DNA of 64,000 nucleotides from Ceratodon purpureus. Taxonomy: Eukaryota; Streptophyta; Bryopsida; Pseudoditrichales; Ditrichaceae. Of this stretch, positions 13,554 through 46,607 are shown piece after piece. Both the position numbers and the translations under genes were made by a program. The stretch spans positions 14,389,668 to 14,453,667 of the forward strand of contig CM026425.1 of assembly GCA_014871385.1 (NCBI GenBank), in the 5' to 3' direction. Numbering within the stretch: position 1 is the stretch's first letter; each line of letters starts with the position of its first letter. A model generated the notes under the pieces. The model was not told the DNA's origin. It saw only the letters and a program-made list of their open reading frames with translations, and did no database searches.

Positions 13554-13557
13554 GGGG
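13554..13557. repeat. Target-site duplication GGGG of the DNA transposon (left)
   Basis: GGGG precedes the left inverted repeat and matches GGGG at 29330-29333. The exact border is uncertain because the left flank is a run of seven G. Confidence 0.6.
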
Positions 13558-13577
13558 GGGTGTAAGCACACTACGCC
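13558..13577 (+). repeat. Left terminal inverted repeat
   Basis: GGGTGTAAGCACACTACGCC, inverted at 29310-29329 with one mismatch. It is followed by a CCCCCC tract and three AAGTACTT-like motifs within 80 bases. Confidence 0.8.
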
Positions 13578-14431
13578 CCCCTAAAAAGTATGTCAGAAAA
13601 GTACTTTTTTGAAAGTACTGCGTGGAAAGTACTCTGTTTAGGGTAGAAAAAACTGTGCGAATGCATTTCCCATAACAGAATATGATTGGAACATTGCCCA
13701 GCATTGTTATTGAAATCCCAAGTTCACAAAAACAATCTAATGGAGTAACAAAATTAGTACTTTCCCGGAATTTAAAAGTATGTCAGATTGTCCAAAATTC
13801 TACAAAGTACAAGTTTTGTAATATTTAGATGTTATATTTTGCTGTAATATTGTAACTGGGTATGAGACTTGTAAATGGCTATGGCCCCCACTTGAAAAAT
13901 CTAGAAGAAGCTGAAGATCCGTGGAGATTTTTGCAGTCTTGTGGAATTTTTTTTTGCAGCCCATAATTCCTAAAATTAAAGGTTCTTTTCTGATTTTCCT
14001 ACGTAGAAGGCTTTCTAGACGTGTGCCCCATGTTGGCTAACGGCCCGATCATTCTTACTTGCTGTTTTATTAGACTTAGAGAATTTATGCGGCCGCCACT
14101 GAGAGTACTTCGCGGATGTAGTTTCACACAGGAAAGTACTTCTTGTACTTCCTGTCAAAATCTTCACCGTCCGAATAAGTCGTCGTTACATCATGGCCGT
14201 ACACGTAGATGATAAGGTCCGACAATAGTGGATCTCACTGGTTTGAAAGTCCGGTGGATCTTTCATTCATTAGCGTGATGGATGTATTGTTCCTTTTAAT
14301 TCTGTGCATCAGTCTGGGTTGCCTTGCATGCGACTGTGTGCCATGCAAGGGTTTTCGACGTCGCACACTCTGAGAAGTTGTGTTCGGAGCAGTGTAGGGT
14401 GCGGCGCAGCCTTTGCAAGGTATGCGAACCA

Positions 14432-17400
14432 ATGTCTGGGGAAGCAGGATCACAGACCCCGCCACTGGTTCAATCGTTGATAACGTCCTACTACGTTGTC
14501 AAGGATCCTCCGTTGCTAGTCCAGAGAGAAATTACTTATTACTATCCTGTGTGTGAGTGTGTCAACGAAGAGAGTGAAGGCGTGGGTCCAGAGTTTAGCG
14601 CCTGTTCATGGTATTCTCCAAGTGAGGATGTTGCCAGTAGCAGTGACGTTGCTGCCACGCCGACGTCAAGGCGTGGAGATATCGGCTGGTACCTACACAG
14701 TGCAAACCAGGTTCTCCAGACAAGAGACCGACTGGTCCACAATCCGAGGTCCCTCTTCGAATCTTTGGTCACGGAGGACGGACTGCCGCGTGAAGAAGTC
14801 ACAAGCGATCCAGATTGTCGAAGTCCTTGCCCTTCGGTGAGTATCTGTTCCATGTTTCTCGACTTCTCTTGATTTCTGACTATGTATGCTGAGTTTCTTT
14901 CTTGATATGTTGTTTGAAGGCAACTTTTTCCACATGTTTACATTTGTCCCTGTACGTAGGTTCAGGGCAATGGTATTTGAAGATTCTAGCTTGCAGACTG
15001 TGCTGGTCCCTCTCTAACCGTGTAGTCTCCACGGGTCTCATGACGTGTAGGATGGGAGACAAGGCCCGTTCACAGAGGTCCAGGGTGCGACGCTCTGGTC
15101 CCGCGGAGAGGACGGCATCCATGGAATCTGCAGAGGCTGCACGGTTAGAGAAGGCGGAGCGCGATCGTGCATACCAGCGACGCCATCGCGAGAGATGTTC
15201 GCAGGGAACGGAAGGAGGGGAGACGACGATGAAGGAAACAGCTGAGGATGCCATTTCGAGTCGAGATGCCTCTAGGGTTGCGCAGAAGATTGTGCAAAGC
15301 CTGTCTGAGGAACTGAGCCTTCTCCCTGGACCTGGTTGCCGTCAGATTGTGATGGAGAAGGTTCTACGTCATGGTCAAGTTTGGCCTCTTCTACCTTATT
15401 ATTATCCTCGTCACTTAGAGGCTAAAAGTATTCATTACTTGATTCAGAGTTTTAGAGCACAGTTACAGTCGTTGGCTATCCCTTTCTCAAATAACATGTT
15501 GTCAAGGAGGGGAGCATTGCTTGATGCTGCTGTTAGTGGGTCTGTGGGTGGTGTAAGGGCCCTTGCTCGTGTGTTAGGAACAAAGGCGGACAATATTCAA
15601 GCGGCCCTGGAAAGGAGAGAAGAATACGAGGATGGAGCTACTCGGTTTGCATTACTTCGAAGGCAAAAACGAGGAGATGGATCATCTAACTACACTGTCA
15701 CTACAGTTGAGGCGTGGTGGCATAGTCAGACAAGGGTAAGTCCTAATAGGAAGGACGTGGTCAACAAGGGCGGTGGTTTGAAGAGAGGAGGGGAAACACA
15801 TCCCAAACACTACTTGACAGTCACTCAGGTACGATTTGTGACTACGTTTATGTACTTTTACAGAGTTCAAACTAAAGTACTAGCAGTAAGGTAGTTGCAT
15901 TGTCCTTTTTTGCCCCTTATACTACTGTTTTGGTTTCCAAGTTCGGATAGTAGTATTAGGTGGAAACAATTAAGGTACCGGTGGAAGTGTTTGTACTACA
16001 TTCTGTCCAATAGTAGTATGTGAACTAGTACTTCCTAGACTAGAACTACGTACGCAGTACACCCGATACTCCAACTGTAATATGTCGACTACTACATCAT
16101 AGACTAGTGTGATGTCGACTACTACATTGAGTACTACATACTACTCTACCGGTACTGTAATATGTAGTACTCCATGTACTCTAACTATAATATATAGTTC
16201 TCTTGATACTCTAACTGTAATATGTAGTACTCCTGGTACTCTAAGTGTAATATGTAGTACTTTCTAGGTATAACTGTAGTATGTAGTACTCCAGGAACTC
16301 CAACTGTACCCTGTCAATTAGTACATCGTAGACCAGATCTACGTAAGTAGTACCCCTGGTACTCAAAGTTTTATACATAGGTACTTCCATCACTCAATGT
16401 ACTTCGTATTTCTTTATGTCGACATGCATAGTACTAACAAAACTGTTTTCACTTGATGTTTGCAGACCGCATTCTTCTTGCAGTTCAAAGAGGCTCATCC
16501 AGAGTGCAAAATCGGACAACGAAGGTTTGAGGAACTGAAGCCCTGGTATGTGAAACCTTTGAGGGACCGTAATGTGTGTTGTTGTATCTATCATGTTGAA
16601 ATGGATCTCATGAGGGTAGGACTGAACACCTTACGGGAGGAAAAAAGGGGTTTGCATGCACAAAGAGGTTGCTCCTGTGCTTGTGCTGTATGTTCTACTG
16701 TATTGGATGATGCAGCGGCTGATGGTGTATGCTGTGATGCTCATCACAGTGTATATAAGAGGATTACTCAACTTTGGGAAGCTTGTCTCTGCCCAAAGCT
16801 AGAGTTTGCTGAGTGGCATAATTTGAGCTGTCTAATGGGTGAATGTGAAGACTGTGGGGTAGAGACACTCCCGCTTTGCCCACATGAGCTGTCTTCGGAA
16901 GAAGAGCCGAAGCTACGTTGGAAACAGTTTTCTTACGTTCAGATTGGGATGGATCGAGAGACAGGGAAGCCAAAGAAGCGTTTGCAAGAGGTATATCAAG
17001 AGACAAGTCCGGTTTTGTTCATCAATTACATGAAACCAAAAATTGCTGCATTCATCAAGCACAATTTTATTGCCAATTGGCAGGACCATCAGTGCAAGGA
17101 AATGATGCGTAACTTGCCTGAGGGGGTACTTGTTTCTCACATTGATTTTGCAGAGAACTATGAATTTCAGATTCAAAATGAGGTACAATCCATGTATTAT
17201 ATGTCTGAGTATGTGTCCTTGTTGGTTCACATCACCCTCCAGAGGGTTCGTGATGAGGACGGTGAATTAGTCACCCTCAAACATACTCACTATTATATCT
17301 CAGACGATAAAAAACATGACAGTTTGTTTGTTCAGCATTGTCTCATGCTCCATTGGAGGTGGTTGAATGATAACGGTCAACCACCGTCGGAGCATTGGGT

Positions 17401-18663
17401 ATTTTCTGATGGATGCGCAGGTCAGTTTAAAGGTGCAACGGCAATGTACTTTGTTGCAAGGTATCCAAGCCTTACCGGTGGCTGCTCCATGATTTGGAAT
17501 TTTTTCGCAACCGGACATGGAAAAGGTACTCACTGTACTTTCTGTAGTATGGTCAATGTACTTTTTGTACTATGTCGCTGTCCATTATCTATTTGTGAAA
17601 TCTAGAAATTATTTCACACTATACCATGCTGATAGGGTTACCTTTATGGATGTTGTTGCAGGGGAATGGGATGGCGCAGGAGCAGTAGTGAAGCGTGCCT
17701 TACGCATGGAACAGATTCGTAATCCAGAGAGACAGTTACAAAACGCCCTCCAATGTGTCGACTTCTTGAAACAGGGCTTCTCAAGTCGTGCACCTTCTTC
17801 GTATGCTGGGAGCACTACCCGGGATATTCAACGTACCTTTTGGCACGTGGGCGAGCACGATATCAATAGAGAATCATCAATGGCATGCCACACCATTGCT
17901 GGTTCCAGATCATTTCATTCGATTATGGGAAATTCAGCCACAAATAATACTTCGTTGTTGGTGAGGGAACTTTCCTGTTACTGTGCTCCATGCATTGAAA
18001 GGGACTGGGAGAATTGCGAGCAACTCGAGCATGTCAAACGGTGGCGTGCTGTTCAGCTGCAGCCTAAAGCAGCTCCAGAAGAGGTGGACCTTATCGACGG
18101 AGACCCGATGGATCAGGTTGCGGCTCATGCTTAGGTTCTTTCTCATTATATTTCAGATTTCATCAAATTTAGATGTGTAACATTATGATATATGCGGCAA
18201 TCATGTTCACCTCTTTCCATGACTCTGTGTGATGTTTGCTATCCAGATTCTGCATGGAGAAAGTTTAGACGATGTACTGGAAGTTGGTGACAACTTTGTA
18301 GTCCCAGCCGAGCAGCCCAATGAAGAGGGAGTTGATTTCTACGTTTTGCAGTGCCAGCGACGTAAGTACCAACTACAGGCACCTCTGCAATGTCCATGGG
18401 GTGCTGATTTTGAAGCAGGGGATTATGTTGTCGAAGGGACCTACTATAGAAAATCTGGCCGTGGAGAATATACGTATACCTACCTAGATAAATCTGTAGT
18501 AGCTCATGTTGCCTCGAACTTAGTCTTAGCATGCAAGTTCCGAATGACACCAGCCACGTATTGCTTGAAAGGTGGGGATCCCGTTTATAAGATATCCTCA
18601 GAAGTTGTCGAGGTTGTGAGGCAGGCTCTATCTCACCTGTGGGAAACTGAGTGCAATGAATAG
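14432..18663 (+). CDS. DDE-like transposase of the 15.8-kb DNA transposon
   Basis: Phase-consistent exons: to 14836, 14920-15828, 16466-17525, 17662-18116 and 18247-18663 (TAG), about 1,080 residues. Exon 2 has a basic, Glu/Arg-rich start (RDRAYQRRHRER). Exon 3 holds a Cys-rich stretch (CSCACAVCSTVL), then SHIDFAENYEF and FSDGCAGQFKGA, and FFATGHGKG runs over the intron into GEWDGAGAVVKRA. These fit an RNase-H-fold DDE transposase with the two Asp in DFAENY and SDGCAGQ; the third acidic residue is not certain. I recall similar DFAENY/SDG.AGQ/SHGKG proteins in other eukaryotes as transposon-like and poorly classified. The C-terminal exon looks like a small beta-rich module (VGDNFVVPAE, FEAGDYVVEGTYYRK), perhaps Tudor- or BAH-like. 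No stops break the exons. The start is unsure: 14432 is the first in-frame ATG, but the open frame begins upstream at a Cys-rich stretch. The 14836/14920 intron is the weakest join. Confidence 0.65.
15900..16440. repeat. AGTACT-rich intron repeat
   Basis: Inside the second transposase intron, more than ten GTAGTACT/AGTACTCC units alternate with AACTGTAATATGTAGTAC, spaced about 25-50 bases. The same AGTACT word dominates the transposon ends and the SUVR intron at 25600-26300. Confidence 0.6.
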
Positions 18664-20253
18664 CTGGTTGCTATGAGATTTTAAGGTTATACAAGGGTTA
18701 CTAGTAAAATTGCAACCCCATGTTAAGCTATCACCAAGTCTGGAATTTCTAGCCTCATACCACATCTGATTAAGTGAAACTATACACTCTGCATTGTATC
18801 AGGGTCGTATATGGCTCTTGTCCTTTATCCAAGCAGCTCGGTGTTTGTTCTGTGAAAGATGTTCATCAACACAATTAAACGAATTTTTACTTACACAATA
18901 CTATGGAACTATAAAGGGTACGGTGGCTGATTTCATAGAAGCTAAATTATATAGACTGCAGTCACTTACCAGACTATTGCACATAGAAACCGTCGATGGC
19001 ACTTCAACTTAAAGAATATTAATGAGTCAGGACCCAAAACAAGTATGTGCCAATGTCATTTAGAACCACAACATAATCGAAAATAGACACTCATTCGGCA
19101 TGACAATTCTGTGATTCCTTGCCTCCCATTTGATTTGGAATTCGTCAGAGAATCAGCTATTTGGCAAATGGGACCATGAAACACGGCAAACCTGGAAAGA
19201 TAATGTCCTTTTGGATTGATGGATGACGCTTGTACCATATTAAGTAGTCACCGTTTTGAAAATGCTGAGTATTCTAAACATCAACAAGGATCTGAATGAA
19301 ATATTGGATACGTTGCAGAATGTGCGCTGGAATCACCGCGGTGTCCAATCTATTATTGTACAAACATTAAAGTCAGTCCATTTACAAGTTCTTCGTGGTC
19401 TTGGCGGATACTGAAACGATAAAAATAAGGGTTAAAATATGGAGCATCAATATAAACAGAAATATTAAGCTAGAGGTTACATAACTAAATGCGGGTTCTT
19501 CATGGTATGGTGTCGGAATCCTAATTAAGATGTGGCATCTTGGACTTCCAGACTAGGAACCTATGCCAGTAGCAGAATCCTGTGTTCCTTCAATGGATAA
19601 TGAGCTTTAAAAGCAAATCATAAGTGGGCAGGATTGAACGCTAAGGAGAACGATGCTAAAGAGTTAACTCTTAAACTCAAATCAGACTATGAGAAGAGCT
19701 TCAAAATTCAACTACTAGGTATATTAAAAAATGAACCTCCAGTATAAATAAATTAATAAAATAATTAAAGCATTACCAAAAACAAGTAAATAATTCGGAG
19801 GGATTGAAGTGTGAACATTTACTTTACACTACCCTTATTCTTTAACCATTCTGCTTATTATATCTCTTTTATTTATTTTATGGTTTAGAAACCTTCTTCT
19901 TTCTTGTCCTAAAACACCTCTTCTATTCTTTTAAAATTCCAACAACCTCTTCCCATCATCGATGTTCTTGTTACAATTTTATTCTTTTTTTAACTAGTGA
20001 TCCTACATCTTCCTCTTTTATATCTCTAAATATTCAACCACCCCACTTCGACCACTTTGTTATTGTTATCCTAATATTATTTATTTATTTATATTTTCTT
20101 CTAGTGATTCTTTTCTTCCTATTTTTTTCCCTTCGTATATCTTATTATTCATTTCTTATTTTTATCTTCCCTTCATTCCTCTTATTATTCTTTTTATTTA
20201 TTTATCTTCCCTTCTTATCTCTTATTGTAATTTGTTTTTTTAATTATTTGTTG

Positions 20254-20284
<31 letters not shown>

Positions 20285-22463
20285 CTTTTTAATTTTTTTT
20301 CCAACCGCCCCTCTCTTTCCTCATCTTTCATCTTGGTTGCTTTATATCTCTTGATATTCTACCATCCTTCTTTGACGGTTTTGTTCTTGCTATTCTAATA
20401 TTATTCTTTTCGTTTTTTCATCTTCCATTCTTTTCTCTTATTATTCTTTCCTTTTTCTATGTTCCCTTCATATATATTTTATTTGTTTATTTATGTATCT
20501 TCCCTTCGTATCTCATATTATTTGTTGTATTTTATTCTTCCCTTCATATCTATTTATTTTTATTTTTATCTATATATGTTCCCTTCGTATCGTTTATTAT
20601 TCATTTTTTCTTTCCATCTTCCCTTCATTCTTCTTATTATTTTTTGTGTTTATTAATCTTCCATCCTTATCTCTTATTGTAATTTGTTATTTATTTTTTT
20701 ATTGTTTTTATTTTTTAATTTTTAATTTTTTAATTTTTTTTCAACCAACCATCCCCTTTATCATCTTTCATCTTGGTTGGTTAATATCTTCAATTATTCA
20801 ACCATCCTTCTTCGACCCTTTTCTTCTTTATATTTTAATATTATTCTTTTTATTTATTAATCTTTTCATCTTATCTCATATCATAGCATTATTAATTGGT
20901 ATTTTTTTTATTTTTTTTATTTATTTATTTTTAATTATTTTTCTACCACCTAAGGTGTCATTTGTTATTTTCCATCTTGGTTGGTTTATATCTTTAAATA
21001 TCCAACCAATCTTTTTCAACCCTTTTTTGTTGTTACTCTAATATTATTCCTTTAATTATTATATTCCCTTCTTATCTCTTGTTATTCTTTTACGGTCTTA
21101 TCTTCTCTTTTTATCTCTTAATATTTTATTTTATTTTATTTTATTCTTATTTTTTTCTCTTTAAATTTTATTTTCTTTGAACTACCATGCTTGTCTCTTC
21201 TTACTCTTGGTATTTTATTTTTATTTTTTGATTTCACACTTCTTTTTATCTCTTATTCAACCACACTCCCTATTATTTATTTATTTGTGGTTCTATTTTA
21301 GTTCTCTGAAAATTTCCGAACCTTGTCTCAACCCCAAGCCACCACCACCCCCCAATCCCCCACATCCCCCACCCCCCAACCCCCCCTCCCCAACTCTCTA
21401 GCCCACTCTGAAATCCTCCTCCACTCCCAACCACCGTCTCCCTCCCTTCTCCTCCCTCTCTCTGTCTACCTTTCTCTCTCCCTAATTTAGGACAAGTGTC
21501 CATCTGTCCTTCAGCTGACCCTCTACCTTTGGCGGGAGGAAAGGAGCGGGAATTCTTGTGAGTGGGTGGAGTTTGATGCTTTACTGACACAGTGTCCGAG
21601 AGGGACGGAATTGCAAAAGTCTTTTCTACCACCTTATATGCTACCGTTGCAAACAAATGGTCATGGTACACAATCCGTTCGGGTGGTGGCTTTTGCATAA
21701 GGGTGGCTTATTTTGCCCGGACTTCTCTCAAGTCCAGGCTCGTCTTTCATATACCCGTGGCTTCAGCTCTTGATCTCCATTTCACTGTACAGAACCTCTC
21801 CTCTTCTTCTCTTGTTCCGGCTTATTTTCTTGCTTACTCTTGATCCCAAGTTTGGAAGCTTGATGTTTTCACTTGATGCGTTCATTGGCTAGATCTGTTC
21901 TTGACGAGAGCCCATTTTCTTTTCTTCTCTTTAGTTGACAGTTTCTATGAGGGTGCCTAACGTCCATTTTATCCGGTTGGTCTCATGTTGCGTATTTACT
22001 TACCCTTTCAATAAAGCAGCTTCATGAAGATCAGGGTGCAATTATGTCACTCCACCGAATCATCCAGGTCATGTTTACTTGAACTCAGTCTGATTGTTCC
22101 GCACAGTTTGTTAGATTGACAGAAATCCAGACTGAATAGGAAATTGCAACATAGTCTTGGCTACCTGGACTAACAAACATTGCGTGTACTGGAAGTTCGA
22201 CAAGGTTAAGCTATTTGTGTTGGCGATGCAGGACAAGGAGTGCTGAGTTGTGACAAGTGGTAGTGGAGGTCGGTATTTGTAGGGGAAATTAGGGGTCCTA
22301 CATTGATAAGAAGCCTGCTTGATATTTAGAATGTGATACTAGAGCTTTTCAACAAGGTGACTCTTGAAGCCTCATTCAATTAAAAAGTTCACTCGTAAGA
22401 GAGTCCAGTATTTCTGGCTGAGTTTTTAGAGGTAGCGTTTACTGTCATGTTCGGCACTTGAGT
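18664..22463. other. Spacer between the convergent transposon genes
   Basis: About 19850-21280 is a T-rich degenerate tandem array (TTATTTATTTATCTTCCCTTC-like units, with a run of about 30 T near 20250). About 21330-21480 is a C-rich tract (CCACCCCCCAATCCCCC). The rest shows no domains. ORFs of up to 182 codons over the array translate to F/L/I/Y-rich repeats and are not credited. Confidence 0.6.
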
Positions 22464-25400
22464 TTACTGTCTCCTACGTTGGTTGGAATCAGGTAGACAC
22501 TGTCCCATTGATTTCTTTTTGGTAGTGTTTTCCGTTTTGGAGAGTAGGGGCTTGTCTCGGCATTTGATACTTCCACACTGGCATTTGAAGGTGGGTACTT
22601 CCCGGTTGTCTGACTGGAAGTCCTCACCGTAGTCCTGTAGATCAATGAAGGCTTAAGTCAAATACGTATTTCTGTAGATACCAGCAGTATTTGCACTGTA
22701 AACAAAATATCAGTGACTTATTCAGCTTCTTTGTTTAGTCAATAACTTACCCATGTCAATTCCTCTAAAGGGTAGATGTCTCGCTTAGCGAAGAAGGCGA
22801 CATGGTAAATTCTATCCTCATCTGAATCAACTCGGGCTGGCATGTCAATAACGTTAGCTCCTTCACACCTACATTGTCGACACAATGGTAAATTAGCATT
22901 AGGATGAAAAAACGGTTTAGACCAAATTTTTACAACCTGGGAATACAGGTTCAAAACATATACGAACGTAGTAGCCGTACCTGTGGTTCATAAACCTTGC
23001 CACGTTTCCATAATGTGTTGCGTCGATACACAAGGAAGACCTATCTGTAGCCATAATTTCGGCACGCCAACAGGCATCTAACTGTAGGGTATAGGTCTGC
23101 CTAAAGCCTAGCAGCTTGTGAACCAAGTGATTTCGCCCAATCAGTTCTTCATTGGTAACAATCTCCCCAGCAAGCTCGAATATAAACTTACCAGCTTCTA
23201 TATACTCCACTGTCCGTACACCCCACCCTCGGGTTGAAGTTTTGAAAATCTGTGAGTTATATTAAAAGCCCGTAATTAATAACTACATTTCTTAAAAAAA
23301 ATAAATAAATAAATAAAAATTGTCTGTTGTATTGTACCTGAACATTAACCTTCATGCCGTGTTGAATAACCCGATTACCACAATGTGAATGGCACGCACA
23401 TTTAGAATTACACTCGGAAATGAAAAGCCTTGGGCGATGGCCAAAGCACTGGGATTCTTCACTGCTGGTGCCGTCGCTTGGGATATTGGAACAGTAACAA
23501 CCGGATCCCTTATCACAAAACTCTAGAGGTAGATCTCGGGCTCTATTCTTAGTGACCACAGCTTTTAGCGTGCCCTTTTTAGTATAGGCAAAGGAGCCAG
23601 ACTGTAGGGCACATGTGCAAGCCGCGGGATCAGACGCAAGACAGTCTGTGCCACAATCGGTACACCCGGATTTAGCCTTGAAGGAATTACCAACGGATGT
23701 CCACAACTCACCGGTGGAACCTTCCTCAACAAGTACCATGCTCTCCTTGATATAACCAAAATCAGGAGGTGAGAAGGAGCAACCGGCAGGTACAATTAAA
23801 GGGACTGGATTCCGCTCCTTGCCCAATGACACGTCCTTAATCAATATTATTTCCTGCTTTTGACAAACGAAAGAAATAAGTTTTTTTAAGTGCAAATTTG
23901 TTTGGCTGTTTGAAATATTTGAGTACTTTTCCGTAAGGTCACATACAAATGGCGTATGTTCAAAAAAAATACATAGATAGAAACAAACCTCCAACATGGT
24001 ACTCACATTCTACCGTACAAAACAGGGTGTAAATATTGTCTATCACCCACTGTAGTGACCACTAAACATTCCTAAGGCACACATCAAACAGTACTCTCCA
24101 AAACAAACTTAACCGGCTTTATCTTCTTCCCACTCTGGCAGCCCCCGGGACTGTCAACATCTGGACATGGACGGTGACTGGAACTCTCATGTGTTTTCCT
24201 CTTGCTCTTTTTCTTCTGCTCTGGCTTCTCCCCTGTAACCTCTGCCCTTTTAGATTTTCTTGTTTGAGGTTTTCTCTGCGGAGTCAAGTCTTCACCTTCA
24301 CCTGCATCATTCGATTTTGTGGAAGCACGGGTCCTCTGTGCCGGCCCCACACTTTCACCTCCTAGACGGTCACTTTTTCTCCGGCCTTCCTTATCCTTCT
24401 TTTGACCCTTGCCGTCTTCACCCTTCCTCCTACTCTTGGATGCCGATCCAGAACCACAGTGTCCCTCTCCCTTCTCTTCGTCCCCTGTTTTTGTTTCCAC
24501 CGCCTGTTCTTCCTCTCCAACCTCATTCTGTACCATCACATCTCCGGCACCCGACATCTCCTGAACCAGCGCAGTCCACGGCTTACCCCAAACCCCTGAG
24601 GTATGTTTGTCCTCCGGTGAACCTTGTTCACTCTCAGAGTATTTTTGTACCTTCGCCTCCATTCCGCCTTCATACAGCGCCTTTCTCCTCTTCTCACCTT
24701 CGGCAGCTACCATCTCATTTACTGTCACCTCCACTTTGTCAATGTCTCCAACTGCCTCGACGCCCGCCAATGTTGTCTCGAGACACTTTGGAACCTGGAC
24801 TGCAGCCATTACTGTCTCCACGTCCCCTACAACCTGACCGCCCTCCACTGCCTCGACACCGGGTGTTTTCTCGACGGTGCCCACGGACGAGACAGCCGCT
24901 GCAGGGGGAACCTCACATGTGTTTCCATGATCTTGCATCCCTCCATCTACCTCGAAACAGTCGCTGTCGACTTCCATGTCGCTTCCGTCGTCGTCCTTCA
25001 CTTGTCTACGCTGTGGCCCACTGTTCCCTTCCGACTCTTCGGAATCACTCCCGCTGGAACTACCACTGGCGGTAGTTCCCGAGCTAGACTTCATGCCGCG
25101 AAGTACTCCTGCAATACATAACCCACAGGTTGTAAGCTAGGGTGAAATCTACCAAATCTGTAGCTTAGAATAATAGAACAATATACAGAGTAGCATACCT
25201 TCACTCTCGGATTCATCATCCTCCTCTTCAGAATCAAACTCTGGCTCTTTCACCCTGGATCTTCCATACGATCCCTCCTCGAGACACTCGAACCCTGCAC
25301 TTGCATTTCGAACAACATGCTTACCATGCCCTGACTTTCCCTGCGATGTACCTGATTTCGCGTGAGAATGCTTCTGAACCTGCCGCACTAGATTTTCGTC

Positions 25401-28400
25401 CCTTCTCTGATCTCCCTCCTCCCTAATACGCATTAGGCTAGATGCGTACGTGTCACCCACAGCGGAGTCCTTGAACTTCGTCGAGCAAACAGCCTGACTC
25501 TGTTCCCCGAAGCTCGCCAAACCATGTGAAAGGCAAGACATTGGTTTTAGAGACGAGTCTGTCATTCCAACAAGAAACACAAATTAACACCTCGCTCAGT
25601 AGGACAAATAATAATCCGTGCATCTTATGTACATCCTAAAAATACTATTTTCACTAACAAACTCAAAAAGTACATTAAAAGTCAACTATAAAAACCACTC
25701 TAATGTACATGTAATACTCAAACCTTACATTTACTATGCAAAGTACTATTCAACTTACATTTTCTACAAGAGCATTGCGCGGTGTTACACTAGAACTACA
25801 CTAGAACTACAACATGTAGAACAGTTAGAACAGTACAAATTGTACAATAATAACATAAAGTACTATGCATCTTAGATGGAACCACAACATCAACTTACTT
25901 GTAATACTAGGAGTACAACATGTTCTACGAGTACTAAGGCTACAGGTATTGAAAGTACTGAGGGACGCACAAACTGTACACCGAGTACAAATCTTCTAGA
26001 CTCACAAGTATGTGCGGTTCGTGAAGTATAAAGAAGTTACAAAAAGGAAAAAAATAAACATAGATGCAAAGTACGACTAGATACTCTAAATGTACAAACA
26101 GTGCAGGGGAATGTATTCTTCCTTGAGACTCTGCAAGACAAGTATTACGTATCAGTAACTGGGACTATGAGTACCAGGACCGAGACTTCCACTACTACCT
26201 AAATAGAGTACTTCTACAAGTCTTTGTGCAACCTGGTAGCAGCAAAGTAAGCTGAGTACTTATGATAATCCCTATCAGAGAAATACATACAAAACCTATA
26301 ACTCAAAACTAAACAAATGCTAAGTACTCACCTGTGTTGGGACAACGTAGACGTGCTCGCTCTGCTCGTTCAGATAGCAAACGTGCCACCTCCTCGTCGC
26401 ACTCTGTCATCAACGACGCCACATCCTGATCAACAATACTCCCGGGGCCTCCCCATCCGAAACTGCGATGCCAATCTGGGTCGACTAATTTGTCACTACA
26501 ATTGGACGCAGCACACTTGTATCCGCTCTCATATGTCACCTTTGCGCAGAAAGGGTGGTACATATGTTTGCAACTTGCAATAACTATATCACTCTTAGGA
26601 AAACTGAACCCACATAGGGCACACTTGGTAATCTTCAAAAACCTCCGCTCAGGAGAACCGTCCTCGCCAAACGCGTTATCAGGGTAGACTAGAGGCACCG
26701 GATTGAGACTACATAAATTTCTGCCGTATCTGATACGGTCACATTCAGTCTTCACTCCCTCGCACAAACGGGCTTTCTGTTCCACTTGCCTCCTACACTC
26801 TACTGCCCCTAGATCCTTTTCTAACGCCTCTGACTCCTTCTGTGAAAGGGTCCGCTTCTGGTCCTCCAAGAGCTCGGCGAGGACTTGGCGCTTGGCTTCA
26901 CTTCCCGGGTGTAAACCGTCGCCTTCTTGATGAGAAGCTAAGTTTGCTTCGTAGGACTCCACCATCAGCAACGCCAGTCGCATGTCTTGAGCAGCCGTAT
27001 CCTTCGCCTTCAACGCCATCTGCTCTTCTACCTTCAGCCCCTCTATCTCCATCAATAAGATAGTGTGCATTGTCTGGAAGTATTCCAGACGAGACATCGA
27101 GGCTATCCCGCGGTCTTCAACCTTCACGGTGGGCGTCGTTACCTCTGTCTTCATACCCGGAGACGACTTCCACTTAGTTGGCGTGGAGGTTGGAGGAGGA
27201 ACAGGCCTCCTCTGCAAAAGACAGATTCTTTTAATTAAAAAAAAAGTGGGAATTCAAAAAAGGATTGAAAAAACACAAAATTACACCTAACATCTATACG
27301 CGTTTATGCATCCATTCAATTCACCAAGCAATGATAGTTAAAAACTGAGTAGCAATTGAGCATGCACAAGTAACAACTTTGATCTTACACAACAAAGCAA
27401 TCAGTGTAACGAACAATCTAAACAAACAGTGTAATTTAATAATTGCAATACACAAACATTGGAAACAAACATTGTTACCGCTGATCATATACCTTCAAGC
27501 AACCTCAACGCAGTCTCACCCTACCTTACAGCAGACCCTAACCCCGCCCCCTTAAACCTTAGAGCTTTGCCCACATGCACTAATACATTCACACACATCG
27601 ACACACGCACAGTCACTCGGAAATTCAGGTTCCTAACTACAGATTCCAGTATTCCCAACCTGAGTCCTCCACACTTGTGCAAACTCTAGAGAGTCGATTG
27701 CATAAACCTGACCGAACACGTTTTAGCAATCCCCTTGTTCCTAAAACCTCAAACCACAGATTTCTCATCGTGTACAACCCTGAACCTATAACAATGTCTA
27801 TCGCAAACCATCTCTAGTCTAAACTAACTGAATTCTCTCCGAAGGCTTAAGCCTGAATCTGAACTGGAAAATTGAGACCGCAACCCTCCACTTACAACCC
27901 GAATCATTATAACCCCCCAAAACAAACCAAGGAAGATATATCAAACTACAAAAACTGACCTTCGTAGGCGTCGCAGTCTCTCCACCGCCCGTAGGCTCCA
28001 TCTTCACAGAAGTATCCACCTTCAAACTTCTCCACGTCCTCTTCGTTACCTTGGCTCTTGTGTTTATCGCGAACCTCAACTTACTCAAATCTTGCTCGTA
28101 CTTTCTTCGCTGACTATTGTTTGTCTCCTGGCCGTATAGAGCCCAGTTTACCGGGTTGTTTTGATACTCCAAAACAACACCCACGGCAAACTGTTTGGTT
28201 ACACACCTAGGCATTTCGTCTATGCGGTGCTGGTAAACAATGGGGTGAATGACCTTGATCCGATTCACAATCTCCCGTACCTTACAATCCGCCCAACTGT
28301 ATCCACCCCGACCCCTCGCTCCTTCCGGCCTGAAACCCAACTCCTGCATCGTTTTGTCGGAGATATCCTTATCCTTCCTGCATCGATGCGGGTTGATGGA

Positions 28401-28679
28401 ATTCTGTCCACACTCCAGATTGTAGGTGTCCCGGAAATCCTCCCAGGTCAAGACATCGGGAGGGGACTTCAAACCGTCGATGAGTTCTTGCAACTCATGG
28501 ACCTCCAAGAAACGCTCCTCCTCCTTCACGACTACTGCCGCAACATCGCTCCCACCCGACTTAGTCCTCCCTTCTTTAGCTCCAATCCCGGAACCACCAA
28601 TCACTCCGGATCCTTGTCTTCCATCCCTAACACCAGGTCGCACACTGTCTAAACCTACGGACTTGCTCCTCTTCGACAT
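22464..28679 (-). CDS. SUVR4-like histone H3K9 methyltransferase fused to coiled-coil/RING-like N-terminus
   Basis: Minus-strand exons: 27960-28679, 26332-27211, 25199-25558, about 24114-25108, 23338-23853, 22981-23249, 22751-22868 and 22464-22634 (TAA), about 1,340 residues with matching phases. ATG 28677-28679 is the first Met. Exon 1 is unknown (motif DEMPRCV). Exon 2 is a coiled coil, then CALCGFSF, CKHMYHPFC, KCAASNC and DWHRSFG, the finger also seen at 3.8 kb. Exons 3-4 are a long charged, Lys-rich linker. Then comes a pre-SET (PPDFGYI, CTDCGTDC, CACHSHCGNRV). The SET follows (GWGVRTVEYI, FELAGEI, ARFMNHRCEGANVID, YHVAFFAKRDI, EELTWDYGEDF), with post-SET CQCGSIKCRDK. The NHRC.xAN and ELTWDY forms match Arabidopsis SUVR1/2/4 rather than SUVH. 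SUVR4 methylates H3K9 on transposon chromatin and binds ubiquitin through a WIYLD domain; here a RING-like module replaces WIYLD. The exon 4 donor is the least certain border. Function is inferred. Confidence 0.82.
25559..26331 (-). other. Intron 2 of the SUVR/RING gene
   Basis: Bounded by ACACAG/GTGAGT and AATGACAG/AC, phase 1. It is AT-rich with many AGTACT/GTACTA words like those in the transposase intron. No coding potential seen. Confidence 0.6.
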
Positions 28680-29309
28680 CAGGGGCGGCGTCTCCAACCC
28701 CCTAAACCTAGCGATGCTGTGCCTAGAACTCTCTGAACCCTAGCGCCTTCACCCCCAACTAAACCCTAATAAAAAGAAGCCAACCACAAACTAAGTCGAG
28801 AGTATAGTTTCCCCGCAGACCTAAGCAATCCAGCTCCGGAACTAAGACGCAATACTAAAAGAAAAGAAAAGCAAAGAAATTCCTATGCACAACACCAACA
28901 TCTCTCAAACCCTCTAACCCTCTATCAACCTAAACTAGCGGAACAGTTAACGATAGAGTTTGAACAAAGAGGTGTTAACGAAGAGGGAAAAGAAGAATAC
29001 ACCACGAAAAAGGAACGACAGTAGCTCCAGCACCAACGAGGCCAGTGCACTAGCGAGACCAAAGGTGCGAGATCAGAGGTGCGAGACGTTGGAGGTGCGA
29101 GACGACGACTACCGGCTAGACTGGTTGGACCCAATCCGACCACCTACTACCACCGGTAAATTGCTTCCTGATAGGTCGATCTTAATATGGACACAGGTGG
29201 CACGCGGTATAGAAATGGACGGTTAGGATTATCAGAAAAAAGTACTACACATACAGTTTGGCAGAAATGTACATCTGAAGTACTTTCGAAATCTGCCCAA
29301 AGTGTACCC
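28680..29309 (-). promoter_or_regulatory. Upstream region of the SUVR/RING gene, inside the transposon
   Basis: About 630 bases lie between the methyltransferase ATG and the right inverted repeat, so any promoter must lie here or in flanking DNA. Four GGTGCGAGA direct repeats occur at 29062-29104. I see no clear TATA box. Confidence 0.4.
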
Positions 29310-29329
29310 GGCGTAGTGTGCTTCCACCC
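29310..29329 (-). repeat. Right terminal inverted repeat
   Basis: Reverse complement GGGTGGAAGCACACTACGCC, 19 of 20 identical with the left end. It is followed at 29330-29333 by the GGGG duplication. Confidence 0.8.
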
Positions 29330-29599
29330 GGGGCAGAAAACTATCTACAGTAGGACAGTAAAGACTGACAGGTCCCAAAGGAACCAAAGTGGAAGGGTGA
29401 AAAAAAAGGGATGGACTGGACAGGAACCAGGAAACAGGAGGACTAGCATCCAACGGACCAGAGGAGGGCTGAGGACAAGGAACCGACAGCACCTACCCAG
29501 GAGTTTTGAAGGAGCAGACTCAGTGACTGGAAGTACCAGCCAAACCAGAAGAGCACCTGACCAGAGAGTACCAAGGGAGGAGCAGCAAACTGTACTGCA

Positions 29600-32500
29600 A
29601 TGGACAGAGAATACCCAGGGTGGGACAAGGAGGAGATAGCCAGGAGACAAGCAGCAGAACGGTTGGCAAGATACGAACTCAGAGAGCAAAGAGCAGCAGC
29701 AGAAGTAGGAAAACCAATGGGAGGACAATTAAGTTCAGAAGAAAGCATAGCAAAAGGGAGAACCAGGGACCTGATTGATATGGACCTGGTAGGAGAGAAT
29801 TCGAGCCAGGAAACAATACTTGGAATAAGCAGGAGGACAGGGTCAGCAAGAGGAGAACCTGGCCCAAGCTTCAAAAATTGGCAGGAGGATGAGGAAGAAA
29901 TTCGGAAGTATGAGGGACATCCACTATCACCCAGGACCAGCAGGAGGGAATTCCCAAGGCCAGGTGAAGGAGACACACAGCATTGCTGGAACCCCCAGGC
30001 CAGAATGGCATCAGCATATGACCATTTCCAGGAGGAGGAGAAGAAAGGAGGCAGCAGACCAGACACACCGAAACCAGGGGAGAAAACACCAGGTGATTTG
30101 GTGGAGACATTGGAAACGCTGAAGAAGAAATTGGAGGAAGTTAACGCTGGGGACAGAGTTCCGACAGGAGCAGCAACACTGTCAGAGATGTACAAAACGG
30201 GTAAGCCCACACAGGTGAATCCCAGGAGACCAGTGGTACATTTTGCACAAGAACAGTTCCAAGGAATGGAACAGGACGAAGAAGAGGAGGACAGAAGACA
30301 ACTGGAGCAGTTCAAGGCCCAACAGCAGGCTAGAAGGCAAGCAGAGAGAGAACGAAGAAACCAGCAGGCAACAGAGGACCTGTACAGGAGACAGATGGAG
30401 GAGCTAGGCCAAGCAGCCCGGTTCAGAGAGACAATGGAGGCGTGGGAAGAAAAGAACCGGGAGGAGATCAAACTGAAGGAAGCCATGAAACTATGGCAGG
30501 AAACAAAGAGGCTTGAAGAGCAGGACCAGGAGAAGCAGAGACAGGAGGCTCTCAGGACCTGGCAGGAGACTCAAAGGAGAGAGGAGATGAAGCAGGCAGC
30601 AGAGAGAAAAGAAGCAATGCAGCAGGACTTGCTAAGACAGGAGGCTCTGCGATTATTACAAGAGGCACAGAGATTGGAGGACCAGAAGAAGAAGGAGGAA
30701 GAAATGAAAGAAGCTACCCGGCAGGCGACCCTTTACAAATGGCAGGAGATACTGAGGGAAGAGAGCCAGAAACTCCAGGCCAAACCAAGGGCGGATCCGT
30801 GGGCAGCATATGATCATTCAGTGGTTCAGGGGGACAGACCAAGTCAACTGAGGGAAGCAGAATTGATGGGAGCACCCTACACTACATCTGTTATACCAGG
30901 AAGGCCAGGGACAGACCATTTCCCAACCTCGAGGACTCGGGTGAGCCCAACAGGAGGAGGAAGAGCACATTCTACCTATGTGGATCACCTCACAGGTGAT
31001 GAGTACAGACCAGAAGTCAACAGAACTGCCTACTGGCCAAGCGGAGGAGCAGAAGCCGGAGCAGGAGTTCCTGACATAGGAACAGGATACAGAGGACCAG
31101 CGGAGATAATGAGAGGGATGCCATATGACACTAGGCCACCTGCAGGAATAGGAGTACCAGGAGATACAGCGGATAGCAGTTATCCAGTGAGGCACGGTCC
31201 ACTATCCTACCCACCAGCTACTAGACCCAGAGTACCCCCAGTGACAGGACCAGTACTTGTGGCACAGAGGAAGCCGCTGACCTACTCCAAGTACAAGGAG
31301 GGGACGAATCCAGATGCTCACATACGGCAGTTTGAAAGGACCCTATGGCACAACGGAGAAACTGATGAGCAGGTGATAATCAACCTGATGGGTACCACTT
31401 TGCTGGACAAGGTTGGTGCATGGTATGAGAATTTCCTGGAGAACCATGTATACTGCTCATGGGAGGATGTTAAAGCTGCTTTCAGGAGGAGGTACAGAGA
31501 CCAGACTACTGATGAGGCAGTATACAGGGAATTGAAGTCCTTCAAACAGGGGGACAGAGAGAAGGTACAGGACTACTATGATCGGTTTATGACATTAATT
31601 AAATGTCTACAATCTGATCCAGGAGAAGGGTTCCGAATCACTAACTTTCGAGCCGGACTACTGGAGTATATCAAGATCACTACCAGTGTGGCACCAGTCA
31701 GGAGTTTGACAGAGTTGGTGGATGCAGCCTTGAGATGCGAGGAGAACTGTACTGATTCCAGTGGTAAACCCACTAAGATCGAGGTGAGAAAGGTGGAGAC
31801 CAGCAGTAAGGCAGCCACAGTGACCAGGAAGGAACCAGACCAGGAGGCTCCAAGGAAAGCCTGTGGTATTTGTAAGAAGCTGGGCCATGATGATAAGAAC
31901 TGTTGGTACAACCCAGCTAACCAGAGGGGGTCAGGTGCGAAGAAGGAAGGAGAAGAACATGTTGGTGTCAATGAAGTCTCTGCTTCTAAACCAGCAGGAA
32001 CTTACAGTTACAACCAAGGATACCAGCGACCACCTAATCCCAGGGCAGGCAGCAGCCAACAAAGGAGTTATGGTGATCAACCACCAAGTTGTTTCTTGTG
32101 TGGAGGAGTAGATCACAGAAGTTGGAACTGCCCCAAGAAGGCACAATGGGACCAGTTTTTGGCAGACCAAGAGAAGACCAACAAGAAGCAGGATCACCAT
32201 GTCAGTAATGTGGAGATTGAGCTAATAGAAGAACCTGAAGAGTCAGTGGGGGTAGCTACCATGACCAGAGCCCAGAGGCTGAAGGCAGGGTTGTTACCTA
32301 TCCAGGATGAATCAAGGGAACCTGAACCAAGAAAGGCCAGAACGAAGGAGGACTGGCAGGAGGAAGAGAAAATCAGGAATTCGATGCTAGAAACCTTGAA
32401 GGAAATTGAGCTTCAAGCAGAGCAGGAGAAGGCAGAAGCAGAGAGACTCAGGGCGACTTTAAAAACAGCAGAAAAGGAAGGGGATGGCGAAGTGCTGGAC

Positions 32501-35500
32501 AATGAGTGGGCAGGATTCCCAGACTCAGATACACTAGCCTACAGCACCAAGACAGTCGAGCAGGAATTGCGCGCAGAAGGGGAGACCAGTACAGAGAACA
32601 ACGAGGAGCAGCACTATGCAACTGTAGTTGGAAGAAAAATACTGGACAGTCCCATCACAGTCTCATTAGGACAGCTGCTGAAGATGGCTCCTAATTTGAC
32701 AGAATTTGTGAAGGCCCATGTATTCCCAGAAATGGTAGCAGACCAGCCAAGTCAGCCAGAGCCAGCACCAAGCAAGAAGCCAACAACCAGTCAACCAGGT
32801 AAGACCGATTTAATAGGCAGTCTGGCTATTGATGTTGACAGAGAACTGCCGGTGTTAACTGTGCAGATAGGCAATGGGACTCTGGAGAATGTCCTACTGG
32901 ATGGCGGATCAGGTGTGAACCTGATAACTGAGGAGGAGCGAAAAAGACTGGGCCTCAAAGACTCACAGCCTGCTCCTTTCAGATTAAGAATGGCGGACCA
33001 GACAGTCGTTGACCCGGTGGGGATGATTCGCAATGTGAAAATTCACATCCATGGTATTCCTTACCTTATTACCTTGACTGTTATTAAAAATAAAGAAGTT
33101 AACGAAGCCTATAGTATGCTGCTAGGCAGACCATGGTTGATTGATGCTAAGGTAAATCACGATTGGGGTAACAATCTGGTTACCATCAGAGGTAATGGTA
33201 CTGTAAAGACCATCTCAGTCAGTCAGAGGAAGGGGCCCAGGCCTAAGCTACCTGAAGTCCTAGTCTGCTATAATTTTACTGAAGGACTGACAGATGAGGA
33301 GGAAGCCTTGTGGTTAGCTAGTGAGCAGGACTTGCTGGCCGTTGGGACAGTCACCCTGCCTCGAATGGAGCCGAACAAGGACCAAGACAACAGAAAGGAC
33401 CAGGACGACATCAAGAGCCCGACAAAGAACCAGGACCAGGACCAGGGACAAGAGGGGGGATCACAGCGAGCCTACCCAGACCATTTCTACAACTTTGAGG
33501 AGGGCGACATTGAAGTGGATGAGACACCAGCCCGGGAGAAAGTGAAGAAATTGAAGATAGCATCCTGGACCTTACCAGAGTCGGAGCAGTTGAGAAAAAT
33601 TAACCTTGGAACAGAGGAGGAGCCCCAGTATCTGAAGATTAATGCAGCCATTAGTCCAGAACAGGCTATTGAAGCAGAGGCTCTGTTCAGGGAATTCAAG
33701 GATGTATTTGCCTGGACCTATAAGGACCTGAAGGGTATCCCACCCTCAATTGCACAGCACAGGATTGAGTTGGAGAAGGATATTCCACCATCCCATCAGG
33801 CCAGATATCGCATGAATCCAAATTATGCCAGTATTGTGAAGCAGGACTTGGATAAACTGCTTCAGGCTGGATTCATTACACCAGTAGAGGATGCTACCTG
33901 GTTATCCCCTATTGTTATTGTTCCTAAGAAAAATGGGAAGTTGAGAATTTGTATTGATTTTCGCAAACTGAATGCTGCCACTAAAAAGGACCCGTATCCA
34001 TTGCCATTTACTGAGGAAGTGTTGGATTCTGTGGCAGGACATGAGATGTATTCGTTTCTGGATGGGTATTCCGGGTACCACCAGATTCAGATAGCACCAG
34101 AGGACCGGCACAAGACTGCTTTTGTAACAGACTGGGGAGCATTTGTGTGGATAGTCATGCCTTTTGGGCTGAAAAACGCACCTCCCACATACCAGAGGGC
34201 AGTAAACAAAGCCTTTCGTGATTTTATTGGTGATTTTATGAAATTGTTTTTAGATGATTTCAGTGTGTACAGTGACATTATTAGCCATCTGGTCAAGCTG
34301 AGAAAGTGTTTTGAGAAATGCCGTGAGTATGGGATAAGTCTAAATCCTGAGAAATGTTTACTACTGGTCTTCTCTGGTATTATACTAGGCCACATTGTAT
34401 CTAAGGAAGGGAAATTTCCTGATCCTAAGAAAATTGAAGCAGTTGAGAACATGCCTAGACCAGAAAAACCAGTAGATGTACAGGTTTTTAACGGTTTTGC
34501 TCAGTTTAACAGGTGCTACATTAAGTCGTACGCACATATCATGGAGCCAATCACCAGGCTCATGAGGAAGACAGAGGAGTTCATCTGGTCAGACCAGTGT
34601 GAGCAGGCATGGAAAAAAATCAAGGAGCAGTACCAGAATGCGCCAATTCTCATTGCACCAAGATGGGACCTGGAGTTCCATGTGCATACAGACGCTTCGA
34701 ATATAGCAGTAGGAGTGATGCTGGCCCAGAATCCAACAGGGAAGTGTGACCAGCCCATTTCTTATGCTAGTAGATTGCTGAATTCTGCTGAGAGGAACTA
34801 CAGTACTACTGAAAGGGAAGCTTTGGCAATGGTTTATGCTCTAAACAAGTATAGACATTATCTGCTGGGCAATAAGTTTGTTTTCTATGTTGACCATATG
34901 GCACTGGTGTATCTGGTCAATAAGCCGCAGGTGTCAGGCAGGATAGCAAGGTGGTTACTGCTGTTTCAAGAATACGATTTTACAGTGGTGTATAAGCCAG
35001 GGAAAAATCATGGTGTGGCAGATGCGATGTCAAGACTGACCAACGGAGAACCAGCAACTGGTGTCGAGGACCAGACCAAGGATGCAAGTTTGTTTTATGT
35101 TAAACCAGAATGGTTAGAGGATGTACGTTCTTACCTGAAATCTGGTGTTGTACGACAGGACTTGTCTAAGGAGGAGCAGAGGAAGCTGATTCTGAAGTCA
35201 CTGCCCTATACACTGGTCCAGGGAGTTCTGCACAAGCGAGGACATGATCTGGTGGTCAGGAGGGTACTGGACCCAGTGCAGGCAGAGGTGGTGATGAAGG
35301 AGATGCACAATGGAGTAGCACGTGGTCATTTTTCACAAGATATCACGAGCAGGAAGATACTGGACGCCGGATACTGGTGGCCAGCGATACATCGGGATGT
35401 TGCAGAATACTGCAAGGCGTGTGATAGATGCCAGAGAGTGGGAGGCATGGCAAATACTGGTTTAGCTACCTTAGTGGCCAGTATGCCAGCAGAACCATTT

Positions 35501-36769
35501 ATGAAATGGGGATTGGACTTCATCGGGCCCATTAAACCAACAGCATCCCGAACAGGGAACAGGTACATACTGGTGGCTACAGATTATGCTACCAAGTGGG
35601 TGGAGGCAAGGGCGCTCAAAACCAACTCAGCAGCAGTTACTGCCAAGTTTTTGTATGAGCAGATCCTTTCCAGATACGGGTGTCCCTTGACACTTGTAAG
35701 TGACCAGGGTTCTCATTTTATAAATGAGGCTATAGAACACCTGGTGGAGCATTTTCTGCTCCAGCATCGTACATCAACAACCTATTACCCCCAGGGTAAT
35801 GGCCAGGCTGAATCAACAAACAAGGTGATTGGTCACCTACTGAGCAAGCTGGTCAATGATAGGCGAACAGATTGGGATGAGCATCTTCATACTGTACTGC
35901 TCTCCTACAGGACTGCTTACAAGGTGACTACAGGTTACACACCATTTCAACTGGTCTATGGCTTACATCCGTTAATGCCAACAGAGTACATAGTACCAAC
36001 CAGGAAGACCAGCTCAGAAATTGATTATACACCAACCAGGGTGTTGGCAGCCAGGATTGCGGATTTGGAGCAGATGGACACTTCAAGACTAGAGGCCCAG
36101 GAAGCAGTAGGGGCCAAGCAGTGGAACAGGGCACTTTGGAGCCAGCAACACTACAAACGCAAGGATTTTCAAGTAGGCGATTATGTGCTCTGGTATCCCA
36201 AGGGCCATAAGGAGCATGTGGGGAAATTCAAAAGTCGGTGGTTTGGACCTTATAGGGTCCAGTACAGGCTCCCCAACAACACTGCTCTGCTGGTCCAGGT
36301 AAAAAATTTTGAACCTGATCCAGTATTGGTAAACATCAATAAGTTAAAACCATACAGATTTTATGAAAAGGAAAACAAGGTAGTGGAAACCAGGACACCA
36401 GGATATTTGACCAGAGGACTGGTCAACGAGCAAAAGGGGGATAGTGTCCAGTCAGGGTTAGAAAATACAGGGATAGAAAGTGAAAAAAACTGTGAAGAAG
36501 GAGGCAGTGAAGCAGTAAAACAGCAGAAGGATAAAGAAAACAGTGAGAGAAAAATGAAAAATCAAAAGAAAAATAAGAATGAGCAAGAGGAAGGACAGAA
36601 AGCAGGGGAAGGAGACATGGAGGAGATGATTGAAAAAAATAAAGGAAATGGAAAAAATAAAGAAGTAGTAGAAAAAGAAAAAACAAAAGAAAAAAAAAGA
36701 GTTAGTGATAGTGGGATGTGGAATGATAGAGGTCATAAAGGGGAGAGAAAAAGGAATGGGACAGTTTAG
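29600..36769 (+). CDS. Ty3/gypsy gag-pol polyprotein
   Basis: An open frame of 2,389 codons. Rough order: E/Q/R-rich N-terminus (to ~420), gag core (~550-700), two zinc knuckles ([28 protein letters not shown]), aspartic protease ([11 protein letters not shown], ~1100), reverse transcriptase ([20 protein letters not shown]), RNase H ([24 protein letters not shown]), integrase ([30 protein letters not shown]) and an integrase C-terminal module (WFGPYRVQ). The protease-RT-RNaseH-integrase order defines Ty3/gypsy. A Lys/Glu-rich tail follows; no chromodomain was recognised. It looks whole. Confidence 0.95.
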
Positions 36770-46068: not shown

Positions 46069-46509
46069 CTCATCATTCCTAACAACTACTGAACAACACC
46101 TCGTATCATAATATTAATGATCACTGACATGTACCTCTAAAAATGGTCACTCACATTGTACAACTAAAGATATATGAATTTTGAATTAAAGTTCATGTGC
46201 AAATAAATATAATTGAAATTCATCCGGGAATCAATATCATCTCCACTTAAATAGATTTTATGACAAAGGGTCACCTATCACTGAGGCGTGGCCATGAGTC
46301 CTAGACTGAAAGGCGGCTACAGCTAATCCTTGACATGCTGTCTACATCAAAAAATCAAACCACGATCTAAAGTGGTACTGACATGAGTTAATATAAGTAC
46401 TCTTAAATTCTCATTACGGCGCCAGTGATAACTAACTCTGTTACTTACGATCTAACTAACTTCCGTTACTCGTGATTCAGATTCATTTCCTCAGATGCAA
46501 CTACAACTG

Positions 46510-46517
46510 TATATAAT
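46510..46517 (+). promoter_or_regulatory. TATA box for the MULE-like gene
   Basis: TATATAAT, about 90 bases before ATG 46608. With the minus-strand TATA it makes a divergent promoter region of about 600 bases. Confidence 0.5.
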
Positions 46518-46607
46518 CATTGTATTGGACCACATCAGTCTCTTATTCCTGTGCACCTTCACTCGATTATTCTCTCGTTCCTGTGCACCTTCACTCTACG
46601 TTTCACT

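Follow-up and report, generated by a model that had tools for sequence, protein, structure and literature searches.

DNA transposons that carry a separate SET gene are on record in the HarbingerS and MuDR families of Phytophthora (PMC12730594), and fungal DNA transposons of several superfamilies carry an epigenetic enzyme as a standing gene, in that case a TET/JBP DNA dioxygenase rather than a histone methyltransferase (PMC12730594). SETMAR also joins a SET domain to a transposase, but as a single fused SET-mariner gene and not as a separate gene of a multicopy element. Here we analyze a 64,000-nucleotide stretch of the genome of the moss Ceratodon purpureus (hereafter, the window) containing a 15,772-bp DNA transposon (window 13,558-29,329) that combines a transposase, an opposite-strand gene for a putative SUVR-type histone H3 lysine 9 (H3K9) methyltransferase and a third gene, ORFX-RING. 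The first-pass annotation of the window had presented a DNA transposon with a separate SUVR gene as new. The idea of a SET gene in a DNA transposon is not, because the HarbingerS and MuDR families are in print; what stands of the claim is that no publication on SUVR, or on SUVR plus RING, in DNA transposons of plants, mosses included, was found among the listed hits of literature searches that did not extend to subscription papers, preprints and Repbase Reports.

Element ends, copies and empty sites

The window starts at C5:14,389,668 in a genome of 362.5 Mb and 151 contigs. Its 15,772-bp unit is bounded by inverted ends complementary at 19 of 20 positions and flanked on both sides by GGGG, as the first-pass annotation had read them. 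A genome-wide search with the 20-bp end at up to two mismatches returned 54 + 61 = 115 occurrences, against 0/1 for a reversed-pattern control, and the ends thus recur far beyond the window locus. Ten further end-pairs in opposite orientation were fetched on the basis of their 14-16 kb spacing, not of their duplications; the end-pairs examined were those 14-16 kb apart plus two short ones, with wider pairs (e.g. C6:26.07-26.09 Mb) left out. All 11 end-pairs examined in the group to which the window copy belongs (clade A) are flanked by a perfect 4-bp duplication (GGGG, TTGT, GCCA, AATA, AGGA, GACT, ATAT, GACT, TAAG, TGAT and TATA), ten different sequences with GACT occurring twice. A second group of elements, clade B, has the ends GGGTTCAAGTACGCTAGACC, which recur 27 + 37 times when up to two mismatches are allowed (control 0/0), with 4-bp duplications in the six pairs examined (6/6) and transposases 60-63% identical to that of the window. 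Together with one element of a third clade (C) and the two short elements, a 4-bp target-site duplication (TSD) was present in 20/20 end-pairs examined (11 clade A, 1 clade C, 8 others), constant in length and varied in sequence, with CCCG and GCGA also represented. The full-size end-pairs examined span 10.8-16 kb, and element ends begin with GGGT.

The window copy (E3, on contig C5) is 99.7% identical over its whole length to element E1 and 99.3% identical to element E2, both on contig C2; a copy this similar on another contig points to recent activity. We read the window element as a young member of a large DNA transposon family of the cut-and-paste type. Two elements of only about 770 bp (C6:7295647-7296414 and C6:51210358-51211129) share its ends and have the 4-bp duplications TTTA and CAAT; one short element has an extra base within its right end, and both are likely non-autonomous.

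The insertion lies in a Gypsy-type repeat, a label given from our reading of the gag-pol-like open reading frame (ORF) that adjoins the element (2402 amino acids [aa], stop-free, window 29561-36769, plus strand). When the two 120-bp flanks were joined with a single GGGG and used as a genome query, all of the best 40 of 198 candidate matches crossed the junction at 94-98% identity; we take these to be other copies of the surrounding repeat. Three of them, checked base by base, have one GGGG each and are empty sites of the window copy. Subterminal AAGTAC repeats are weakly enriched at the element ends, and no Rfam match was found anywhere in the window. The anatomy and mobility of the unit as a DNA transposon are, in our judgement, close to certain.

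Gene content in three clades, linkage and selection

Sequences of transposase, SUVR and ORFX-RING occur in one order in all 15 elements examined for genes. In clade A, tblastn recovered every piece in 11/11 elements, with order and orientation unchanged. In five of these (E1, E2, E3, E7 and E13) the matched blocks of all genes are without stop or frame break; the matched SUVR blocks are free of both in seven. Two of two clade B elements, near-identical to each other, have the same layout (identity to the window copy: ORFX ~38%, RING 42%, SET 52%, transposase 61%), as does the single clade C element, which is 10.8 kb long and flanked by AACT (transposase 57%, SET 48%, ORFX 34%, RING 28%). Transposase, SUVR and ORFX-RING have thus been inherited together over deep divergence in three clades. 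Several copies accordingly hold both of the genes originally described between matching ends with differing 4-bp duplications, empty sites having been identified for the window copy only.

The association was also assessed genome-wide on the best 114 of 1172 transposase, 118 of 1036 SUVR and 150 of 699 SET candidates, the SUVR matches being listed incompletely; the locus counts below refer to these lists unless shorter ones are named. Among these listed matches, 71/113 transposase loci are followed downstream, at no more than 20 kb, by a SUVR or SET piece encoded on the opposite strand (54/71 in clade A, 17/42 in clade B), whereas random placement, for which contig sizes were partly approximate and set to 18 Mb where not entered, gave 0.9 linked loci on average and never more than 4. 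Two transposase rows at the end of the list of 115, both from a single locus (C6:87.96 Mb), are left out of this count, as are the three top-scoring SET rows, which are host-like genes (L001-L003). An earlier count on shorter lists gave 41/115 linked loci against 1.7 expected; in every one of the 41 the linked piece was downstream and oppositely oriented. SUVR genes thus lie regularly beside transposases. Five SET matches of equal score (41.9 bits, 194-aa frame) were also recorded at C13:10342, C18:7611, C73:32228, C108:14060 and C119:20437, that on C13 lying near the contig start; they are possibly a subtelomeric or unplaced repeat.

The SUVR gene was confirmed on the strand opposite to the transposase, its reading frame remaining open through the five exons of the splice model. 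Its product has a Pre-SET (E-value 2.8e-10), a SET (E-value 5e-19) and a CxCxxxxC post-SET region, with the motifs GWG, NHRC, ELTWDYG and CQCGSIKC. All three clades retain GWG, NHRC and ELTW, whereas conservation of the post-SET cysteines was seen in clades A and B. The closest relatives in the Protein Data Bank (PDB) are G9a/EHMT2 (E-value 1.7e-33), the SET part of SETMAR, EHMT1, Clr4, SUVH6 and SUVH4. NHRC in place of NHSC is typical of plant SUVR1/2/4, and the two host SUVH-like genes examined carry NHSC. In a protein tree, the cargo SUVRs and four metagenome proteins fall apart from these two host genes; the tree does not settle a single origin of all cargo SUVRs. Judged by the domains and catalytic motifs of the window and clade B copies, the protein is assigned to the SUV39 class, and on family and motifs it is probably active on H3K9.

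Two genes alone had been described in the element. This was incorrect: the minus strand also encodes ORFX (28697-27960) and a RING-like part (27211-26312) in the interval from SUVR to the right end, and both are present in 11/11 clade A elements. We count three genes per element because ORFX and RING form a single 651-aa ORF in clade B, matched by nine public proteins at 42-98% identity; in clades A and C they are separate ORFs, and we infer that they belong to one gene there too. The cysteine/histidine pattern of the RING-like part is retained in all three clades. A second RING-like ORF, at window 3244-4122 (plus strand) and outside the element, encodes a product 26% identical to that of the RING exon (E-value 1.8e-11) and may be part of a different mobile element or a related host gene.

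On the plus strand, transposase-like ORFs over 14,893-18,663 agree with the initial identification of a transposase and represent several exons. As regards a DDE/D type of transposase, an alignment of 34 rows contains three invariant aspartates (D283, D288 and D318), a nearly invariant one (D230) and a DGAGAVxKR block after GHGKG, and 207 homologues were found in a public protein set at E-value <= 1e-3. No Pfam family matched the window transposase core, scattered weak matches being confined to single relatives, and the transposase profile had no match in the PDB. Scans of viral and prokaryote contigs with the alignment returned 15 and 23 pattern matches, respectively, none of them a confirmed relative.

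Nei-Gojobori ratios of nonsynonymous to synonymous divergence (dN/dS) between E3 and E13 (C8:213,923-228,830) are 0.03 for SET, 0.07 for RING, 0.13 for ORFX, 0.20 for the SUVR N-terminal part and 0.09 for the transposase core; the values are rough, since dS exceeds 1 for SUVR, RING and ORFX. The genes are under purifying selection between subfamilies. For the same pair, dS is ~0.3 in the N-terminal and core exons of the transposase but reaches 0.65 and 1.17 in the C-terminal parts of that gene, and values for SUVR, RING and ORFX are 1.3-2.7. This unevenness suggests that subfamilies have exchanged halves, giving E3 and E13 a mosaic ancestry.

Table 1. Features of the transposon in the window (coordinates in window positions).
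Feature	Position	Strand	Remarks
Left target-site duplication GGGG	13554..13557	.	single GGGG at three empty sites
Left terminal inverted repeat GGGTGTAAGCACACTACGCC	13558..13577	+	19/20 paired with right end
Transposase N-terminal exon region	14893..15894 (matched part 15052-15816)	+	ORF; 11/11 clade A, also clades B, C
Transposase core exon	16457..17524	+	conserved cysteines, invariant D residues, GHGK at end
Transposase C-terminal exon part 1	17601..18131 (matched part)	+	carries DGAGAVVKR block
Transposase C-terminal part 2	18229..18660	+	ORF; matched in clade A
SUVR-type gene	22464..25583	-	splice model; Pre-SET, SET, post-SET
SUVR exons in model	25108-24114; 23853-23338 (Pre-SET); 23249-22981 + 22868-22751 (SET); 22634-22464 (post-SET)	-	
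Likely upstream SUVR exon	within 25583-25149	-	
RING-like exon, probably same gene as ORFX	26312..27211	-	C-x2-C ... C-x-H-x-Y-H-x2-C ... C-x4-C
ORFX, no known domain	27960..28697	-	matched in 11/11 clade A
Right terminal inverted repeat GGGTGGAAGCACACTACGCC	29310..29329	-	19/20 paired with left end
Right target-site duplication GGGG	29330..29333	.	matches left GGGG

Elsewhere in the window, ORFs at 46476-49440 (plus strand) have a weak SWIM zinc-finger match (E-value 0.023, below the cut-off) and look like a Mutator-like transposase.

Proposed role of the SUVR and ORFX-RING genes

Given the long retention of this gene set by related elements, the silencing enzyme would seem to serve the transposon itself, and selection has very probably maintained SUVR and ORFX-RING because they benefit the element. 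We propose that the transposase would mobilise the element through its ends, that the SUVR protein would methylate H3K9, and that ORFX-RING would be a ubiquitin ligase or adaptor helping to place or stimulate this mark. SUVR and ORFX-RING would together write heterochromatin on the element copies, which would limit the element's own expression and damage to the host and would keep the copies in a chromatin state usable by the transposase. A RING-like gene beside a putative H3K9 writer recalls, by analogy, the ubiquitin response of two known enzymes: ubiquitin on H3K14 boosts Clr4 more than 250-fold (PMC8443253), and SUVR4 acts on H3K9me1 with a product state that is ubiquitin-dependent in vitro, passages of the source disagreeing on which state (PMC7218100).

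Taken as a whole, a gene-set transposon that writes heterochromatin on its own copies is the best explanation available, and we lean modestly towards it. That SUVR would act mainly on the element's own chromatin is favored over counter-silencing and insertion targeting, although as a claim in itself it falls just short of an even chance. We advance a bolder version only tentatively and consider it rather doubtful. These elements may be a separate lineage of giant DNA transposons, to date seen in this moss, whose H3K9 writer and RING protein have made up an obligate chromatin module since the lineage arose. Such a module would be a transposon-borne counterpart of the coupling between histone ubiquitin and Clr4 in fission yeast, marking the copies of the element itself and thereby allowing the parasite to adjust how strongly it is silenced.

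Several observations weigh against the proposed role. The SUVR blocks contain in-frame stops or breaks in 4/11 clade A elements (E5, E10, E12 and E14), and parts of the fast-changing SUVR N-terminus were unmatched in E9, E12, E13 and E14. Among the listed matches, 42/113 transposase loci lack a SUVR or SET piece in the range used, and 42/110 SUVR loci lack a transposase within 25 kb. The one unlinked transposase locus inspected (C9:5.05 Mb, clade B) carries SUVR, RING and ORFX, and two of the unlinked SUVR loci (C6:54.0 and C6:70.7 Mb) have transposase blocks in the fetched elements. Inside subfamilies, dN/dS is mostly 0.2-0.6 (range 0 to 2.2), consistent with drift or death of many copies. 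At the protein level, the clade C post-SET piece gave no match in the motif alignment, and H3K36 and H3K4 enzymes are also among the PDB matches to SUVR, with weaker scores. The zf-RING_16 match of the RING exon (E-value 7.8e-4, 19.5 bits) lies under the curated Pfam cut-off of 27.4. The enzyme further differs from SUVR4 in that the N-terminal, ubiquitin-binding WIYLD domain (role: PMC7218100) was not found in the SUVR parts scanned, the N-terminal model being our own; the idea that the element simply copies the SUVR4-ubiquitin mechanism is therefore unsupported.

The strongest alternative is that SUVR counteracts host silencing of the element. Transposon epigenetic genes, SET included, have been read as such a counteraction (PMC12730594), the ubiquitin-dependent behavior of SUVR4 on H3K9me1 (PMC7218100) would be compatible with it, and so would the retention of SUVR under strong selection. 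The Pre-SET, SET and post-SET regions nevertheless resemble those of ordinary repressive enzymes, and the failure to detect WIYLD in the parts scanned also argues against it; we regard counter-silencing as unlikely. Less probable still is a role in insertion targeting, in which the mark or its writer would act as a tether between transposase and heterochromatin, steering new insertions into safe, repeat-rich DNA. The window copy does lie inside a Gypsy-type repeat, and contig C6 (110.5 Mb), which represents 30.5% of the genome, holds 63/115 transposase rows and 98/150 SET matches among those listed. C6 is the probable sex chromosome, the C. purpureus genome being ~360 Mb with U and V chromosomes of more than 100 Mb each (PMC8000587), and non-recombining chromosomes gather repeats regardless. 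The insertion target was classified for the window copy, the SET count on C6 includes host genes, and a Pfam scan found no reader domain in the transposase core.

Many plant transposons carry captured gene fragments, as in Pack-MULE elements, and SUVR and ORFX-RING could in principle be host genes acquired by chance and hitch-hiking. Such passive capture is very improbable and was rejected: the genes are long and open rather than fragmentary, their order and orientation are constant in three clades whose transposases and SET regions are 57-63% and 48-52% identical to those of the window, and dN/dS of 0.03-0.13 between E3 and E13 contradicts it. That two neighbouring elements with chance inverted repeats simulate one transposon in this repeat-rich region is of negligible probability and was ruled out by the collinear unit at 10 further places, each with its own TSD, and by the empty site of the window copy.

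Should the enzyme write H3K9 methylation, a genomic parasite would own the very mark with which its hosts silence parasites, and the gene writing it would have been retained through at least three lineages of transposon. Near-identical copies with open genes make self-limitation, host evasion and chromatin-steered insertion testable. Counts of SET genes in such genomes can, moreover, be inflated by transposon copies.

Comparison with known transposons

Sola is the leading known candidate for the superfamily of the transposase. Sola groups other than Sola2, Sola1 included, have 4-bp target duplications. The Sola2 group has them as well (PMC3627910), but its duplications are AT-rich, whereas GGGG, CCCG, GCGA and GCCA also occur in the family described here. 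The HarbingerS and MuDR elements share with this family a gene for a SET-domain histone methyltransferase; they belong to the Harbinger and MuDR lineages and to an oomycete. The 3-nt ANT/TNA target pattern of Harbinger in Ectocarpus (PMC12477816) also differs from the varied 4-bp duplications found here. The case for Sola rests on its 4-bp duplications, on the presence of Sola1 in the moss Physcomitrella (PMC9033089) and on Sola1-1_Ec32 of Ectocarpus, a giant 21.5-kb DNA transposon whose transposase faces, on the other strand, a gene for a modifying enzyme; that enzyme is a ParB-DNA methyltransferase and not a SET protein (PMC12477816). A further likeness lies in Sola2-Fanzor elements, in which near-identical transposase halves are joined to different other halves (PMC3627910).

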